A DNA stretch of 64,000 nucleotides, from positions 1 through 64,000 of the forward strand of contig JADZEX010000034.1 in assembly GCA_020850355.1 (NCBI GenBank). The letters run 5' to 3'. The notes under the pieces were generated by a model, which saw nothing but the letters and a program-made list of their open reading frames with translations, did no database searches and had not been told where the DNA came from. The translations under genes were made by a program, and so were the position numbers. This DNA is from Fimbriimonadaceae bacterium. GTDB lineage: Bacteria > Armatimonadota > UBA10988. This document shows positions 29,241 to 36,291 of the stretch, piece by piece (the first letter of the stretch is position 1; the number at the start of each line of letters is the position of its first letter).

Positions 29241-30383
29241 TCAGACCATGTGATCCCGCAGCGCCGGGCCGATCCAGCTCAGGTTGGCGCGCGACATCTC
29301 GCTGTAGTTGTAGAAGATCACCCCATCGGCGCCGGCCTCGTCGCAGGCCGCGACGATCTCACGCAGGGCCGCCGCGCTGGGCACGTCACCGAAACCTGGG
29401 CGCAGGCCGACCTGCAGCTCCTGGCCGGCCTCGAGCTGCTGCCGCCGGGCGCTGACCCGTTGGTGGACCTGGGCGGCGTTCAGCCCGTACCCGCTGCAGG
29501 TCACAATCTGGTACTGCGAGCCGCCCTCGAACCCTTCGAGCAGCGTGGTGCCCCCAGCCAGGGCGGCGCGACAGAGGTCCTTGACCCCCTCCTCCAGCGT
29601 GGTCTGCGCATTCTGGTACTGCCGCAGCGCCGGTAGCCGTTCGAGCAGCTCGTCCCAACTGCCGGGCCACTCCGCCGGGCGGTCGGGGGCGCTGTCGAAG
29701 TAGCCCTGCAGCAGCGCCGCCACCTGGTCCCGCAGCTTGCCGGCGTTGATCCCCGCGGCGCGGGCCATCGCCAGGTCGTGCTCGGCGAAGCTGAGGTCGA
29801 ACAGCCGCCCGGCGACGGCGTCCAGGACGACGCTGTAGCGCTCGTGGTGGTGCCCGTGCCGGAAGCCCAGGTAGCCTGGCGACTCGAGCTGGATCGCGCG
29901 CGGGCGGTAGCTCAGGGCGAGGTTGCGCACCAGCACCTCGAGGTACTGCCGGACGTCGGGATGCGCCGGGTTCAGGGCATGGGGGTAGCGGTCGCCGAAG
30001 CAGTTCTGGACACAGACCTCGGGGTGGGCCAGGCCGAGGGCCGTGTTGTGGCAGCAGATCGTCCAGGTCGAGAGCGTCAGGCCGTACGAGCCGACGGCGT
30101 CGCGCAGGGCCGCGAGCTGATCCACCTCGTGGCAACACCGCGCGATCGGCGGTCGCAGGCGGCAGTCCTCCCAGAGGTCGGGTGCCGGCTGAAAGTAGAG
30201 CGCCCCATCTTCGGGCAGCCAGCACCGGCGGCCGCGGGAGTGGGGGTGGATGAACCACCCGGCGTGGTAGTTGCTGGCCGGGTAGAGCGTCGTCAAGCCG
30301 GCGTCACGGGCGTATCCGAGCACGGTCTCCAGGCCATCGGACCAGACGTCCCAGGCGTGCATCCAGAGTCCGGCCGTCTTCAT
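29241..30383 (-). CDS. Uncharacterised TIM-barrel-type protein, possibly carbohydrate-active
   Basis: 380 aa, starting MKTAGLWMHAWDVWSDGLETVLGYARDAGLTTLYPA. The repeated strand/helix pattern and aromatic-rich loops (NYHAGWFIHPHSR, LSTWTICCHNT, LESPGYLGFRHGHHHERY) resemble glycosidase-like barrels. Candidate acidic residues are Glu in QLESPG and Glu in EGFEGGSQYQ, but no family motif is certain. FYNYSEMSRANLSWIG ends the barrel. There is no signal peptide. It is a lone gene with an inverted repeat 20 bp before its start and a hairpin after its stop. Confidence 0.55.
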   Translation of the reverse strand: MKTAGLWMHAWDVWSDGLETVLGYARDAGLTTLYPASNYHAGWFIHPHSRGRRCWLPEDGALYFQPAPDLWEDCRLRPPIARCCHEVDQLAALRDAVGSYGLTLSTWTICCHNTALGLAHPEVCVQNCFGDRYPHALNPAHPDVRQYLEVLVRNLALSYRPRAIQLESPGYLGFRHGHHHERYSVVLDAVAGRLFDLSFAEHDLAMARAAGINAGKLRDQVAALLQGYFDSAPDRPAEWPGSWDELLERLPALRQYQNAQTTLEEGVKDLCRAALAGGTTLLEGFEGGSQYQIVTCSGYGLNAAQVHQRVSARRQQLEAGQELQVGLRPGFGDVPSAAALREIVAACDEAGADGVIFYNYSEMSRANLSWIGPALRDHMV

Positions 30384-30437: not shown

Positions 30438-30934
30438 AGCGGTCGCGAGTTCGCCACGCTGCGGCGGTGTCCTTCGACCCTACCCCCACGGCCCGCTGCC
30501 GCGCGGGCTGGAGGGCCAGGCCCCGCCGGTGGCGCGCTGGCTGAGATTCCAGGCGGTGTTCACCACCAGGTCCCCGGTGAGGTTGCCGCCGCCGCCGCCA
30601 AACAGCTCCAGATCCGCACGCGCATCACCGCACTCCTTGCTTGTCGGCGCCAGCGGCCCCCCGCCCTGAGTACGCCCCAGCCCGCCAATCCCTTCCCGGC
30701 GCGCCGTTACCCGGCCGCTCCCACCGGCCGGCTGAGGGCGCTCGCGGGGAGCGCTCCTGTAGCGGCAACCCTTGCGGTTGCCGACGCAGTCGACCACGTC
30801 AGGCGGACCGGCGGCGAAACACGGGTCTGGACTGACGGTACTCCGACGGTCCTGACCCGTTTTCGCCGCCACCACCTACAGCCAGCCCGGACCAGCGGTC
30901 GCCCGCGGCGGACCGGATGGAGACGGCGCCCCTT
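30438..30934. other. Non-coding stretch, no gene recognised
   Basis: About 500 bp with open frames but no convincing start, codon pattern or domain. It contains one small hairpin at 30763-30783. A minus-strand open frame covering 30480-30875 reads ADLELFGGGGGNLTGDLV near its end, which could be a decayed gene remnant, but this is weak. Confidence 0.4.
30763..30783. repeat. REP-like hairpin
   Basis: CGGCAACC-CTTGC-GGTTGCCG: a perfect 8-bp stem with a 5-nt loop, flanked by GGAGCGCTCC, itself a palindrome. The style matches dispersed extragenic palindromes. Other genomic copies cannot be checked here. Confidence 0.45.
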
Positions 30935-31600
30935 ATCCCGACGGATCCGCTCACCGTCGCCAACCTGGCCCTTCGAGACGGCCTGCGGCCTGCGCAGGAC
31001 CAGCGGGTTGGGGTTGGTGGGCTGGGAAGAAGGATGGGCGGACGGCCTGGGTCTGCCCGACCACGAACCAATCCCAACCGCTTGTCCTGAGCCGCCGCGC
31101 AGCGGCGAGTCGAAGGGCCAGGCACCCGATCCCAGCCGATCCGTCCACCGTCGCCAACTCCGCCCTTCGAGACGGCCTGCGGCCTGCGCAGGACCAGCGG
31201 GTTGGGGTTGGTGGGCTGGGAAGAAGGATGGGCGGACGGCCTGGATCCGCCAGACCGCGAGCCAATCCCAACCGCTTGTCCTGAGCCGCCGCGTAGCGGC
31301 GAGTCGAAGGGCCAGGCACTGGATCCCAGCGGATCCGCCCACCGTCGTCAACCTGGCCCTTCGAGACGGCCTGCGGCCTGCGCAGGACCAGCGGGTTGGG
31401 GGTGGTGGGCTGGGAAGAAGGACGGGCGGGCGGCCTGGGTCTGCCCGACCACGAACCAATCCCAACCGCTTGTCCTGAGCCGCCGCGCAGCGGCGAGTCG
31501 AAGGGCCAGGCACCGGATCCCAGCCGATCCGCCCACCGTCGCCAACCTGGCCCTTCGAGACGGCCTGCGCAGGACCAGCGGGTTGGGGGTGGTGGGTGGG
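30935..31600. repeat. 194-bp tandem repeat array (3.4 copies) with hairpin arms
   Basis: Units start at 30935, 31129, 31323 and 31517. The marker CACCGTCG recurs at 30952, 31146, 31340 and 31534, exactly 194 bp apart. The last copy is partial and carries a 7-bp deletion. Each full unit contains a left arm beginning GGCCCTTCGA and ending AGCGGGTTGGG, and a right arm that is its imperfect complement (CCCAACCGCT ... TCGAAGGGCC). The pairs span 30967-31119, 31161-31313 and 31355-31507. Each right arm also has an internal GCCGC/GCGGC hairpin. The copies differ by a few substitutions. The design is that of paired REP sequences (BIME-like) amplified in tandem. Confidence 0.85.
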
Positions 31601-31677
31601 ACGGACGGGCGTCCGCCGACCTGGGCCGCGCGCCGGACTCGTCTTGACAACGCCCGCCGCCCGTGGAATCCTGGAAT

Positions 31678-31693
31678 GCAAACACATGTTTGC
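31678..31693 (+). promoter_or_regulatory. LexA-type SOS operator before the mutagenesis cassette
   Basis: GCAAACACATGTTTGC: a perfect 7-bp inverted repeat with a 2-bp centre. It fits the Gram-positive/actinobacterial SOS-box form CGAAC-N4-GTTCG with G-to-A changes in each half (CAAAC-N4-GTTTG). It lies 17 bp upstream of the ImuB-like start and downstream of a consensus -35 TTGACA at 31644-31649, where a repressor would block transcription. The imuB-dnaE2 type of cassette is LexA-controlled in many bacteria. Confidence 0.6.
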
Positions 31694-31710: not shown

Positions 31711-33114
31711 ATGGCGCGGACGGTGTTGCACGTGCAGTTGCCGGGGGTCTATGTGGCGGCGGCGGTGGAGGAGGGGCAGGTGGCGGCGGGGCAGCCGGTG
31801 GTGGTGCGGCGGGGGGATCGGATTGTGGATGTGGCGGGGATTCCGGAGTTGCGGCGGGGGCAGCCGGTGCGGGTGGCGCGGCGGCTGGCGCCGCGGGCGG
31901 TGGTGGTGCCGGTGGAGGCGGTGGGCGGGGCCGAGGTGTTGCGGGCGGTGTGGGACAAGCTGCTGGAGATGGGCCCGGCGGTGGAGCCGAGCAGTTGGCA
32001 GTCGGGCTATGTCGATGTCACGGGCTGCCTGCCCCGGCGGGGGGTGGCGGCGCATCTGGCGGCTTTGGCGAAGCGGCTGAGTCGCCTGACGGGTCAGCCG
32101 CCGGCGCAGGGTATGGCGGCCAACAAGCTGGTGGCGCGGCACGCCTCACCGTTGCGGCAGATGGTGGCGCCCGAGGAGACCACGGCGTTTCTGCAGGAGC
32201 AGCCGTTGCGGCCAGGGCAGGGGCTGGCCAGCCGGCTGGTGGAGCAGCTCGGTGAACTCGGCTGTCGCCTCTGGGGTGAGGTGGCGGCGGTCCCCGAGCC
32301 GCGGCTGTACAGCCTCTTTGGCCCGCTCGGCACGTTGGTCCACCGCTGGTCGCAGGGGCACGACCCGCGGCCGGTGCAGGCGAAGTACCCGCCGCCCAGC
32401 GAGACCGTCAGCGCGGCGGTGGAGGGTGACGAGCATGGCGGCTGGGTGGTCCACCTCGGCCGTCTGGCCGACCGGCTGGCGGCGCGGCTGCAGCAGCGTG
32501 GGGAGCTGGCGACCGAGGTGATCTTGGAGGTGGTGACGCGGGAGACGACCCTCCGCCGGCCGCGGCGGTTTCCGCGGGGGATCACCAGCGATGCGCGCCT
32601 GCGGGCGGTGGTGCTGGGGCTGCTGCCGACCGACCTCGACCCGCAGCGGGTCGAGGAGCTGCGGTTGACGGTGCGCGGATTGCGCCGCCGCGGCGTGGTG
32701 CAGGGGGTGCTGGTGTGGGATGAGCCCGAGGAGCGCCGGCACCTGGTCGACGGCGTGATCGCCGCGGTGCGCGAGTCCTACACGCTGCGCAGCCTGGGTT
32801 GGGGGGCCGATGTGCTGACCAACCGCGAGCGCCTGGCCGAGAGTGTCTGGCGGCTGGAGGGTGCTGGCAACCCCACCCCGCGGCGCTGGGAGCAGGCGGC
32901 GGCCGTCGCCACGACTGTCCAGGGGCTGCCCGCCCGGCTGGCCTGGGGCCCGGGTGAGCACGCGGTGGAGGGGGTGCTCGACCGCTGGCAGGAGACCGGC
33001 CGCTGGTGGGACGGTGAGCCGCGCCGGGAGTTCTTCCGGGTCGAGGCGGCCGGCCGGTTCGACCTCTCGCGCGATGAAGCGGGCGCCTGGCGGGTCGAGG
33101 CGGGGTGGGACTGA
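31711..33114 (+). CDS. imuB: ImuB-like Y-family polymerase homologue, catalytically dead
   Basis: 467 aa, starting MARTVLHVQLPGVYVAA. It aligns with DinB-type polymerases, where this position reads H-V-D-M-D-x-F-Y-A. The first metal-binding Asp is replaced (HVQLPGVY). At the second site, QSGYVDVTG stands for the usual D-E-x-Y-L-D-V-T, so the D-E pair is also lost. The finger/thumb and little-finger regions are kept (LTGQPPAQGMAANKLVARHAS; RRFPRGITSD). The last ~60 residues (REFFRVEAAGRFDLSRDEAGAWRVEAGWD) match the small C-terminal domain often fused to ImuB. The protein probably acts as the clamp-linked adaptor of an error-prone translesion complex with DnaE2, which starts 6 bp downstream. 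Confidence 0.8.
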   Translation: MARTVLHVQLPGVYVAAAVEEGQVAAGQPVVVRRGDRIVDVAGIPELRRGQPVRVARRLAPRAVVVPVEAVGGAEVLRAVWDKLLEMGPAVEPSSWQSGYVDVTGCLPRRGVAAHLAALAKRLSRLTGQPPAQGMAANKLVARHASPLRQMVAPEETTAFLQEQPLRPGQGLASRLVEQLGELGCRLWGEVAAVPEPRLYSLFGPLGTLVHRWSQGHDPRPVQAKYPPPSETVSAAVEGDEHGGWVVHLGRLADRLAARLQQRGELATEVILEVVTRETTLRRPRRFPRGITSDARLRAVVLGLLPTDLDPQRVEELRLTVRGLRRRGVVQGVLVWDEPEERRHLVDGVIAAVRESYTLRSLGWGADVLTNRERLAESVWRLEGAGNPTPRRWEQAAAVATTVQGLPARLAWGPGEHAVEGVLDRWQETGRWWDGEPRREFFRVEAAGRFDLSRDEAGAWRVEAGWD

Positions 33115-33120
33115 AGCCTG

Positions 33121-36100
33121 ATGAGCGCCGACTTCGTGCATCTGCGGGCGACCAGTTGCTACGCCTTCCTCCGCGGTGCGGGGCACCCCGAGGCTTACGC
33201 CGAACGTGCCGCCGAGCTGGGCTACAGCGCGCTGGCGTTGACCGAGGAAGACTACCTCTGCGGCTTGCGCCGCTTCGAGGGCGCCTGTCAGGCGGTCGGG
33301 CTGCGGCCCCTGCTGGGGGCCACCCTGAGCACCACCGCCGGGCCGTTGAGCTTCCTGTGTCGCGACCGCGAGGGCTACCGCAAGCTCTGTCGCCTGCTCA
33401 GCGCGATGCACCTGGCGGCGGCCCCGACCGCTGCCGAGGCCGACGACGAGGACCCGCTGCTGCCGCCCCTCTCGATCCGCGGCGGCCGGCCGGCGACCTG
33501 GGACGACCTCGCCGAACTCGCCGGCGATCACCTGCTGGTGCTCACCGGTGGTCGCCGCGGGCGGCTGGCGGAGCGGCTGCGGCAGCGCGACGAAGATGGC
33601 GCGGCGGCCTGGCTGCGGCAACTGCTCGAGCGCTTTGGCCGGCGGCAGGTGGTGGTTGAGCTGCACCGCCTGGGCTGTCCCGGCGACCACACCCTGACCT
33701 TGCGGCAAGCCGCTTTGGCCAGCCGCCTGGGCCTGCGCTACGCCGCCACCAACGACGTGCGGTACGTGCGGCGCGAGCAGTTCCCGGTCTACGACATCCT
33801 CTGCTGCACCCGCGTGCTGCAAACCGTCGACACCCCCTTCGCCGGCCGGCCGGTCAACGATCTGCAACACCTCGCCAGCCCGGCCGCGATGCAGCGCCGT
33901 TTCGCCGACCTGCCGGCAGCGCTCAGCAACACCGTCGAACTGGCCGCCGAGTGCGCCACGTTGCAGCTCGGGCGCGACCGCTTCGTGCCCTGTTACAACG
34001 GCCTGCCACCCGCGGAGCAGGCGGTCTACCTGAGCCGCCTGGTCAGCGACGGGGTGCTCGAACGGTACCCCCGCGAGCAGTGGCGGGCGGTCTTCGAGCG
34101 CGTCAAAGAAGAGCTGCGGATCATCCGCGCGCTGCACCTGGAGGGCTACTTCCTGCTGGTCTGGGACGTCTGCCGCTGGGCCCGCGCGCAGGGCATCCGC
34201 TGCGCCGGACGCGGCTCGGCGGCGGGCAGTGTGGTCTGTTACGCCTTGCGCATCACCAATGTCGACGCGCACCGCCGCGAGATCACCCTGGCCCGCTTCC
34301 TGAACGAGCAGCGCACCGAGAGTCTGCCCGACATCGACGTCGACTTCGACCGCGCCGGGCGCGACAAGGTGATTGACTACCTCGTGGCGCGCTACGGCGC
34401 CGACCATGTGGCGATGACCGGCACCTACATGCGGTACCACGCCCGCAGCGCGATTCGCGATGTCGGCCGCGCGCTGGCACTGCCGCCGGAGGATGTCGAC
34501 CGCCTCGCCAAGTCGCTCCCCCGGCTCGGCTGTGACCAGGTCGACGGCGCCGAGATCAAGTATCCCGACGTCCGCCACTCCCCCTGGGCCGAGGCCCGCT
34601 TCGCCCGCCTGCGGGACCTCTTGCCGGCCCTGAGCGGCATCCCGCGCCACCTCGGCACGCACCTCGGCGGGGTGATCATCACCCCCGAGCCGCTGGCCGA
34701 CCTGCTGCCGGTACAGCGCGCCGGGAAGCCCTACCGGGTGATTCAGGGCGACAAAGAAGACGTCGAAGACCGCCTCGTGAAGTTCGATTGCCTCTGCCTG
34801 CCGATGTTCAGCGTGATCGAAGACGCCAACCGCTTCGTGAAGCAGCACACCCCGCAGTTTGAGGTCTTCGATGTCCCGCTCGACGACGCCGCCACCTTCG
34901 CGCGGCTGCGGCGCAGCGAGACGATGGGCGCCTTCGAGGTCGGTTCACCGGCCCAGCGGGCGTTGCACGCCCGGCTGCATTGCGACGACTTCGAACCGTT
35001 GGTGGCGGCCCTGGCGCTGATCCGGCCGGGGCCCATCAAGGGCAACATGGTCGAGCGTTACCTGGCCCGCCGGCAGGGCCACGAGGCGGTCGAGTACTGG
35101 CTGCCCGACCTGGAGCCGGTGCTGCGCAAGACCTACGGGGTGCTGGTCTACCAGGAGCAGGTGATCGAAGTCGCGCGGATCGCCGCCGGCCTCTCGGCGG
35201 CCGAGGCCGACATCCTGCGCCGCAGCATCAGCCATTACCGCAGCGAAGAGGCGATGACCAAACTCGGTGCGAACTTCTGCGCCAAAGCGGTGGCGCATGG
35301 CCTGTCCGAGGCGACGGCGACGCAGATCTTTCAGGCGGTCCGCGGCTTTGCCGGCTACGGCTTCTGCGAGTCCCACGCCGCCGCCTTCGCCGACACGGCG
35401 TACCGCAGCGTCTACTTGATTGAGCACCACCCCGCCGAGTACTTTGCCGGCCTGCTGCGCCACCAGCCGATGGGCTTCTATCCGCCCCACACGCTGGTCA
35501 ACCTGGTCCGCCGCCGGGGCATTCGGGTGGTTGGCCCGGCGCTCAACAGCGGCCCGGCTCGGACCACGGCGCAGGAGGGCGCGATTCACATTGGCCTGGC
35601 GCAGATCAAGCGGATCCTGCCCGAGACGGCGGAGCGGATCGTGGAGACTCGCCCGCACCACAGTCTGGGCGACCTGCTACGCGCGACGCGGCTGCCGAAG
35701 GACCGGGTCGCCAGCCTGATCCGCGCCGGTGCCTGCGACGAGCTCTCGGACCACCGTCGGATGCTGCTGTGGCAGTTGCAGGAGCTGCCGCACACCCCGC
35801 CCGACCCGCAGTGGCACCTCGATCTGCCGCCCTGCGACCCGCCCCCCGATCCGCGGCTGCCGCGCTTCAACGAGTGGGACCTGCTGGCCGGCGAATGGGA
35901 CGCGCTGGGCTTTCCGCTGAGCAGCCACCCGCTGGAGTCGCTGCGTCCGACGCTGCTGGCCCGCGGGGTCAGCCCGATTGCGACCTTCGCCGGCGCCCCG
36001 CCGCGGACGCGCTTCCGGCTGGCCGGCCTGGTGCTCCGCCCCCACCGCCCGCCGACCCGTACCGGGCGCAACACGCTGTTCTTCGACCTGGAGGACGAGA

Positions 36101-36291
36101 CCGGCGTGGTCAGCGTGACCTGCTTCAAGGACGTCTACCAGCGCGACGGGCACCATGTGCTGCGGCACCCCGTGGTGCAGGTCGACGGCGCGGTCGACGA
36201 GCGCACCGGGCTGAGCCTGATCGCCAGCCGCGTGCAGCCGATCAGCGAGCCCCGCACCCTCGCCTCACCGCACGCCCGGACGCTCTACTGA
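33121..36291 (+). CDS. dnaE2: Error-prone DNA polymerase III alpha, DnaE2/ImuC
   Basis: 1056 aa C-family polymerase, the size of DnaE2 rather than replicative DnaE. The catalytic aspartates are in LPDIDVDFDRAGRDK (D404, D406), with AGRGSAAGSVVCYAL before them and RPGPIKGNMVERYLARR after. VYQEQVIEVARIAAGLSAAEADILRR and FGYGFCESHAAAFA-type motifs (here GYGFCESHAAAFADTAYR) follow. The C-terminus carries an OB-fold (RFRLAGLVLRPHRPPTRTGRNTLFFDLEDETG). The N-terminal PHP domain lacks its metal-binding histidines: LRATSCYAF replaces the H-x-H strand and LTEEDYLCG replaces T-D-H-D. This is the translesion, mutagenic polymerase, working with the ImuB-like protein. It overlaps the convergent kinase-fold gene by 7 bp. 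Confidence 0.92.
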   Translation: MSADFVHLRATSCYAFLRGAGHPEAYAERAAELGYSALALTEEDYLCGLRRFEGACQAVGLRPLLGATLSTTAGPLSFLCRDREGYRKLCRLLSAMHLAAAPTAAEADDEDPLLPPLSIRGGRPATWDDLAELAGDHLLVLTGGRRGRLAERLRQRDEDGAAAWLRQLLERFGRRQVVVELHRLGCPGDHTLTLRQAALASRLGLRYAATNDVRYVRREQFPVYDILCCTRVLQTVDTPFAGRPVNDLQHLASPAAMQRRFADLPAALSNTVELAAECATLQLGRDRFVPCYNGLPPAEQAVYLSRLVSDGVLERYPREQWRAVFERVKEELRIIRALHLEGYFLLVWDVCRWARAQGIRCAGRGSAAGSVVCYALRITNVDAHRREITLARFLNEQRTESLPDIDVDFDRAGRDKVIDYLVARYGADHVAMTGTYMRYHARSAIRDVGRALALPPEDVDRLAKSLPRLGCDQVDGAEIKYPDVRHSPWAEARFARLRDLLPALSGIPRHLGTHLGGVIITPEPLADLLPVQRAGKPYRVIQGDKEDVEDRLVKFDCLCLPMFSVIEDANRFVKQHTPQFEVFDVPLDDAATFARLRRSETMGAFEVGSPAQRALHARLHCDDFEPLVAALALIRPGPIKGNMVERYLARRQGHEAVEYWLPDLEPVLRKTYGVLVYQEQVIEVARIAAGLSAAEADILRRSISHYRSEEAMTKLGANFCAKAVAHGLSEATATQIFQAVRGFAGYGFCESHAAAFADTAYRSVYLIEHHPAEYFAGLLRHQPMGFYPPHTLVNLVRRRGIRVVGPALNSGPARTTAQEGAIHIGLAQIKRILPETAERIVETRPHHSLGDLLRATRLPKDRVASLIRAGACDELSDHRRMLLWQLQELPHTPPDPQWHLDLPPCDPPPDPRLPRFNEWDLLAGEWDALGFPLSSHPLESLRPTLLARGVSPIATFAGAPPRTRFRLAGLVLRPHRPPTRTGRNTLFFDLEDETGVVSVTCFKDVYQRDGHHVLRHPVVQVDGAVDERTGLSLIASRVQPISEPRTLASPHARTLY

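Follow-up and report, generated by a model that had tools for sequence, protein, structure and literature searches.

The region described here lies in a window of 64,000 nt, the whole stretch of DNA that was analysed, which belongs to a draft genome of 6.67 Mb in 117 contigs (G000 in the coordinates given below). The domain content of the imuB-like and dnaE2-like genes agrees with the names given to them in a reading made earlier from the sequence alone (Table 1). A LexA-like palindrome stands 17 bp before the imuB ATG. The only other exact CAAACANNTGTTTG in the genome is found at a second promoter, between TTGACA and TATCCT (C115:2151, locus L239); the gene behind it is presumably one for a TcmP-type protein.

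Table 1. Genes and repeat features around the tandem array (window coordinates)
Feature	Coordinates	Strand	Basis or detail
Divergent neighbour gene	29241..30383	-	No Pfam match
Small GGCAACC/GGTTGCC hairpin	30764..30782		Also found beside A elements at other sites
61-bp near-perfect palindrome of a second dispersed family, carrying GGGTCAGGACC	30810..30870		Fold and genome search
Tandem array, 3.4 copies of B-A heterodimer and linker, 194-bp period	30935..31601		Repeat searches
A arm 1, hairpin core with private CGCAGGACCAG variant	30970..31000	+	B partner missing
B(-)/A(+) heterodimer 1	31084..31194		B hairpin 31084-31116, spacer 31117-31163, A hairpin 31164-31194
B(-)/A(+) heterodimer 2	31278..31388		B 31278-31310, A 31358-31388
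B(-)/A(+) heterodimer 3	31472..31575		B 31472-31504, A 31552-31575 with 7-bp deletion
LexA-like palindrome GCAAACACATGTTTGC in the imuB promoter	31678..31693		Neighbour, not part of the array
imuB-like gene	31711..33114	+	PF00817
dnaE2-like DNA polymerase III alpha gene	33121..36291	+	DNA polymerase III alpha domains

The tandem array has three copies that are 91-95% alike, followed by a partial fourth. Tandem Repeats Finder places it at 30944-31601 with a period of 194 bp (3.4 copies, 91% matches, score 1127), and a repeat search of the window gives in-register copies of 247 nt each, starting at 30935, 31129 and 31323 with identities of 91 and 95%, with the partial fourth copy offset to 187 bp. 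The three copies and a partial one proposed in the sequence-only reading are thus recovered by both searches, and the motifs that it described as common to the arms (GGCCCTTCGA and AGCGG-TTGGG) are present. The 7-bp deletion that it saw in the partial copy is also real: GCCTGCGGCCTGCG has become GCCTGCG, with one of two adjacent 7-bp direct repeats (GCCTGCG) gone, which is the kind of loss that slippage gives. The copies diverge by scattered point changes and the contig continues into unique sequence on both sides; the array is therefore not a simple duplicated-read or otherwise trivial assembly artefact, a possibility that had been raised.

The two hairpins of the array, A and B, also occur together elsewhere in the genome as a recurrent dimer, with B on the minus strand, a 47-bp spacer and A on the plus strand, the CCTTCGA ends facing each other and the GTCCTGAG ends outward; outside the array this dimer is found on contigs C39 (twice), C7, C109 and C95. 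Because this is the unit that is conserved, the array is best read as a lone A arm and then three B-A heterodimers with 83-bp linkers, the last with the deletion. The earlier description of a tandemly amplified, inverted pair of REP-like arms stands, but its register does not, as it had paired A with a B arm 83 bp away. The coordinates given in that reading cover the array but miss its surroundings, the small hairpin and the 61-bp palindrome listed in Table 1. Since the latter comes from another dispersed family (43 matches in the genome), palindromes of at least two families form a mosaic in the intergenic region.

Dispersal of the palindromes and growth of the array

A 388-bp query taken from the array gave 62 BLAST matches in its own genome, both single copies and pairs, and the hairpin pattern CCTTCGA-N(8-26)-CTCAGGAC gave 49 matches compared with 0 for the reversed control pattern. 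Single copies elsewhere in the genome, on which the sequence-only reading had staked its case, are thus present. The A and B hairpins have a common foot (CCT-(TC)-GA against TC-AGG) and different inner stems; on the other strand the foot reads CTGAG...CGAAG and has two unpaired or mismatched positions (an unpaired or G.A-mismatched step). In other genomes the ends of the palindrome are constant and the stem varies yet remains self-complementary, with a mean perfect stem of 5.5 compared with 3.3 in shuffles for the 37 variants listed, several later entries of which were completed with the standard GAC end, leaving the stem score unaffected. The family is a short palindrome dispersed in many copies of one genome, it forms pairs of alternating orientation and it takes part in mosaic clusters with a second palindrome family interleaved; judged on these sequence features it fits the REP/BIME description and we classify it as REP-type. 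A G-quadruplex in the G-rich tail of arm A was also considered and was dropped, as the G3 motif is found in only 10 of 34 copies. Many of the draft contigs end inside repeats (C3, C7, C9, C39, C49, C65, C66, C86, C109 and others), and the true number and length of arrays are therefore underestimated.

All four A arms of the array (the three intact arms and the truncated fourth) carry CGCAGGACCAG, with the private variant GCCTGCGCAGGACCAG, whereas CTCAGGACAAG or a close variant stands in the ∼28 dispersed A copies, none of which has the array form. As the mutation is private to the array, the array grew locally. The simplest reading would be one insertion, one mutated arm and then local tandem copying. 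From these variants we infer the order of events: a dispersed, non-autonomous dimer would have inserted between imuB and its divergent neighbour, a mutation would have arisen in its A arm, and slippage or unequal recombination would then have multiplied the altered unit in tandem. The mutation breaks the conserved foot, and the A arms of the array may therefore be inert. An array of this sort, a locally multiplied pair of dispersed REP-type palindromes, is ordinary in itself.

It could be argued that an old palindrome pair, itself immobile, simply underwent replication slippage or unequal recombination, with an ancient dispersal and no enzyme now active. The private mutation in all of the array A arms, the 7-bp slippage deletion and the mutated A foot agree with this. 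Such a history accounts for the array, but not for near-identical hairpins at many sites of this genome, nor does it explain why relatives within the same family lack them, and we consider it somewhat unlikely. The 388-bp array unit had no match in 60 relatives, and an ImuB-based scan of named genomes returned only one distant, uninformative MAG locus.

Stand-alone GIY-YIG genes and flanking palindromes

The only stand-alone GIY-YIG gene of this genome (G000:C49:113950-114162; PF01541, 58.8 bits) ends 13 bp upstream of one such palindrome of the A/B family and ∼130 bp upstream of a second, so that both lie within 170 bp of its stop codon. These palindromes have termini in common with arms A and B; ∼30 bp around one of them is also found around array arm B, and the other has termini in common with arm A. 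Two observations at this locus count against a link: the stems of the two palindromes (types C1 and C2) are not identical to those of arms A and B, and the gene overlaps the end of ileS, with palindromes on the downstream side only. Genomes G009, G087 and G138 belong to three other families, and in each of them the palindromes characteristic of that genome flank stand-alone GIY-YIG genes on either side.

A profile of seven stand-alone GIY-YIG proteins, built from genomes that had first shown the link, was used to search 291 genomes of the phylum, and 70 loci were read. A palindrome with the CTGAG/CGAAG core or of the CGTC-tagged type (a GTCAT-initial hairpin) lies within 350 bp at 55 of the 70 GIY-YIG loci, compared with 3/23 Y1 and 2/8 uvrC control loci, and such palindromes stand on both sides at 33/70 loci, compared with 0/31 for Y1 and uvrC together; the Fisher p values (3e-8 against Y1, 4e-3 against uvrC and 2e-7 for both sides) are descriptive, as the motif definitions were refined while the loci were being viewed. 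The density of CCTTCG..CTCAGG falls with distance from the GIY-YIG genes, from 1.94 per kb at 0-150 bp to 0.71 at 150-300 bp and 0.13 at 500-1000 bp, and is 0 in 60 kb at 1.0-1.5 kb. The core is also nearby in 11 of 13 close homologues that were left out of the profile building. In a motif-free test, most GIY-YIG loci have a repeat common to the upstream and downstream flanks, and a 900-bp shift of one flank reduces this to 0-1 of 46. The Y1 loci, which served as positive control, show the same pattern as the GIY-YIG loci, unlike uvrC. Many of the repeats shared between flanks are textbook CGTC REPs with CCA tails.

The type of palindrome is associated with the nuclease clade. GTCAT hairpins are found at 1/19 loci of the close clade, which goes with the CTGAG/CGAAG type, and at 32/51 of the rest (p = 1e-5); nuclease clade and palindrome type thus covary. 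At least eight palindrome copies are present in 16 of 89 genomes with the nuclease and in 7 of 202 without it (p = 7e-5), an association that is only modest once the genomes that supplied the profile are excluded (4/12 versus 14/273, p = 0.004). Seven genomes have at least eight copies yet no GIY-YIG match, and one of them, G233, carries 235 CCTTCGAC..GCTCAGG palindromes with no stand-alone GIY-YIG match; genomes such as these, rich in copies and lacking the nuclease, may be gapped drafts or relics. A separate clade of stand-alone GIY-YIG genes adjoins tRNA genes (L200, L207, L209, L211 and L213) and is without such palindromes. Duplicated 3' ends of tRNAs flank these genes on either side, as would be expected had they been inserted at tRNA sites.

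The linkage extends to other phyla, which were sampled mainly through named plasmid and megaplasmid records. Palindrome-linked GIY-YIG genes occur in Azospirillum lipoferum, Shinella, Rhizobium sp. CIAT894, Neorhizobium, Methylobacterium bullatum and M. aquaticum, Sphingomonas parapaucimobilis, Neisseria gonorrhoeae (with dRS3-type repeats), Aeromonas caviae, Planktothrix and Spirosoma. Flanking palindromes are absent from the loci of E. coli yhbQ and B. subtilis yazA and from those of Variovorax, Acidiphilium and a Xanthomonas plasmid.

Proposed partner of the palindromes

On balance, we think it rather probable that the array is an amplified REP heterodimer, with a fixed CTGAG...CGAAG core and a variable stem, and that the likely partner of its family is a stand-alone GIY-YIG nuclease and not a RAYT. 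The candidate nuclease would recognize the hairpin or cruciform formed by the palindrome, at the hairpin foot, and cut there, and repair from another copy would spread or multiply the element. The REP dimer would then be a nuclease element minus its gene, and breaks made by the nuclease perhaps helped the array to grow by slippage or unequal exchange. Rather more tentatively, stand-alone GIY-YIG nucleases might be dedicated mobilizers of CGTC-type and CTGAG/CGAAG-core REPs across bacteria; these repeats would form a second, HUH-independent REP class, with the dimers as gene-less derivatives and with foot recognition specific to each nuclease clade.

The main rival to a functional partnership is that GIY-YIG genes are passengers, which insert into or beside REP palindromes and have no part in the spread of the repeats. 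Insertion sequences have been described as targeting REPs (PMC1525189), and on plasmid AZO_p3 of Azospirillum lipoferum 4B (L226) the GIY-YIG gene is inserted in the suf operon, between sufB and sufC, with a CGTC REP dimer on either side, as a passenger might be. Against a passenger role, the flanking palindromes are whole and not split halves, 12 of 13 loci of the closest clade have their nearest upstream palindrome in inverted orientation, nuclease clade and palindrome type covary, and genomes with the gene carry more REP copies. The covariation, the whole inverted flanks and, less strongly, the copy-number association favour a functional partnership over passengers, and we regard the latter as unlikely.

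The sequence-only reading had looked instead to a RAYT, and had asked whether a Y1 transposase was present. There are two Y1 genes in this genome, on contigs C42 and C85, and neither adjoins the A/B family: the C42 gene is flanked by GGGTCAGGACC and the C85 gene by GCCCAGGGC-GCCCTGGGC. Mobilization and amplification of the REP pairs by a RAYT or IS200-type Y1 transposase, the classical REPIN/BIME route, would have these genes as candidates, and the second family of the mosaic does match one of them, as the GGGTCAGGACC motif of the 30810-30870 palindrome matches the sequences that bracket the RAYT-like Y1 gene at G000:C42:169402 and resembles the GGGGWSAS motif published for RAYT-gene flanks (PMC3733652). 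The A/B palindromes themselves have no GTAG at the foot, their termini being CCTTCGA and CTCAGGAC, and their motif was found within 1.5 kb of none of 23 Y1 loci; both Y1 genes of this genome have their own, different palindromes. A search for a RAYT or Y1 partner of the A/B family in this genome and seven others gave no linkage, and a RAYT origin of the array is improbable. The IS200-like Y1 gene at G000:C85:430-771 (L051) is embedded in arrays of GCCCAGGGCATCGCCCTGGGC palindromes, which make up a third family, for which this gene is the candidate enzyme.

A regulatory role of the array at the imuB-dnaE2 promoter, as an insulator or, as had also been suggested, a fold-back barrier to transcription or a protein-binding array, is very improbable. 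Its stems are strong, and a promoter-like TTGACA and the LexA-like palindrome follow directly downstream of it. However, it stops ∼40 bp short of the former and 76 bp before the latter, every copy has a mutated A hairpin foot, dozens of unrelated sites carry the same elements and no relative in the phylum searched carries the unit. Its position next to imuB-dnaE2, in a divergent intergenic region of 1.3 kb, is probably incidental.

Comparison with known systems

Few small repeats are commoner in bacteria than REPs. The GTAG class has a known enzyme, the RAYT, and the CGTC class takes in the Neisseria dRS3 repeats and repeats of many Alphaproteobacteria. A consistent nuclease partner, if true, would offer a testable mechanism for the rise, spread and multiplication of CGTC-class repeats, and would give a function to a large family of small proteins that are often annotated as excinuclease-like or have no assigned role. 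The array would be a useful snapshot of one REP dimer undergoing amplification.

The CGTC-tagged REP superfamily was reported without an associated transposase, in a paper that makes no mention of GIY-YIG or homing nucleases (Di Nocera et al., 2013; PMC3733652). No link of CGTC REPs, dRS3 repeats or such palindromes to GIY-YIG proteins was found in the open-licence literature searched, and relative to that literature the GIY-YIG-REP link is apparently unreported. The palindromes beside many GIY-YIG genes are classic CGTC REPs (for example CGTCATTCCCGCGAAAGCGGGAATCCA). The window family resembles them in being made up of short, intergenic palindromes with a TGTC/CGTC-like tag and no Y1 transposase attached (PMC3733652); the tag is TGTC in most copies and CGTC in G087, and the array A arms have GGTC. 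Like CGTC REPs, which are mostly head-to-head dimers, often heterodimers, with a conserved spacer, it has a recurrent dimer with the tags outward and the CCTTCGA ends inward. It differs in its CCTGAG/CGAAGG foot with an unpaired or mismatched step: in place of a perfect, AT-initial stem of 8-9 bp with a CCA tail, its stem starts with CCT, contains the mismatched step and has a GGGC tail. We file the window family as REP-like, related to the CGTC class but no strict member of it.

REPIN/BIME systems with a RAYT (GTAG REPs) likewise have paired inverted REPs, tandem amplification and one gene per REP type at a flanked, REPtron-like locus, but the window family lacks GTAG and has no Y1/HUH gene beside it, the neighbouring gene being a GIY-YIG nuclease. 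The nuclease is similar to the stand-alone GIY-YIG proteins of the UPF0213/YhbQ/YazA type (PDB entries 1ZG2 and 1YWL), single domains of ∼100 amino acids, with a profile match to 1ZG2 of E = 2.5e-24; the yhbQ and yazA genes tested, unlike the palindrome-linked nucleases, have no flanking palindromes. With GIY-YIG homing endonucleases the candidate shares the logic of a mobile gene and the GIY-YIG catalytic domain; unlike them, it is free of any intron and is a free-standing, intergenic gene bracketed by palindromes.
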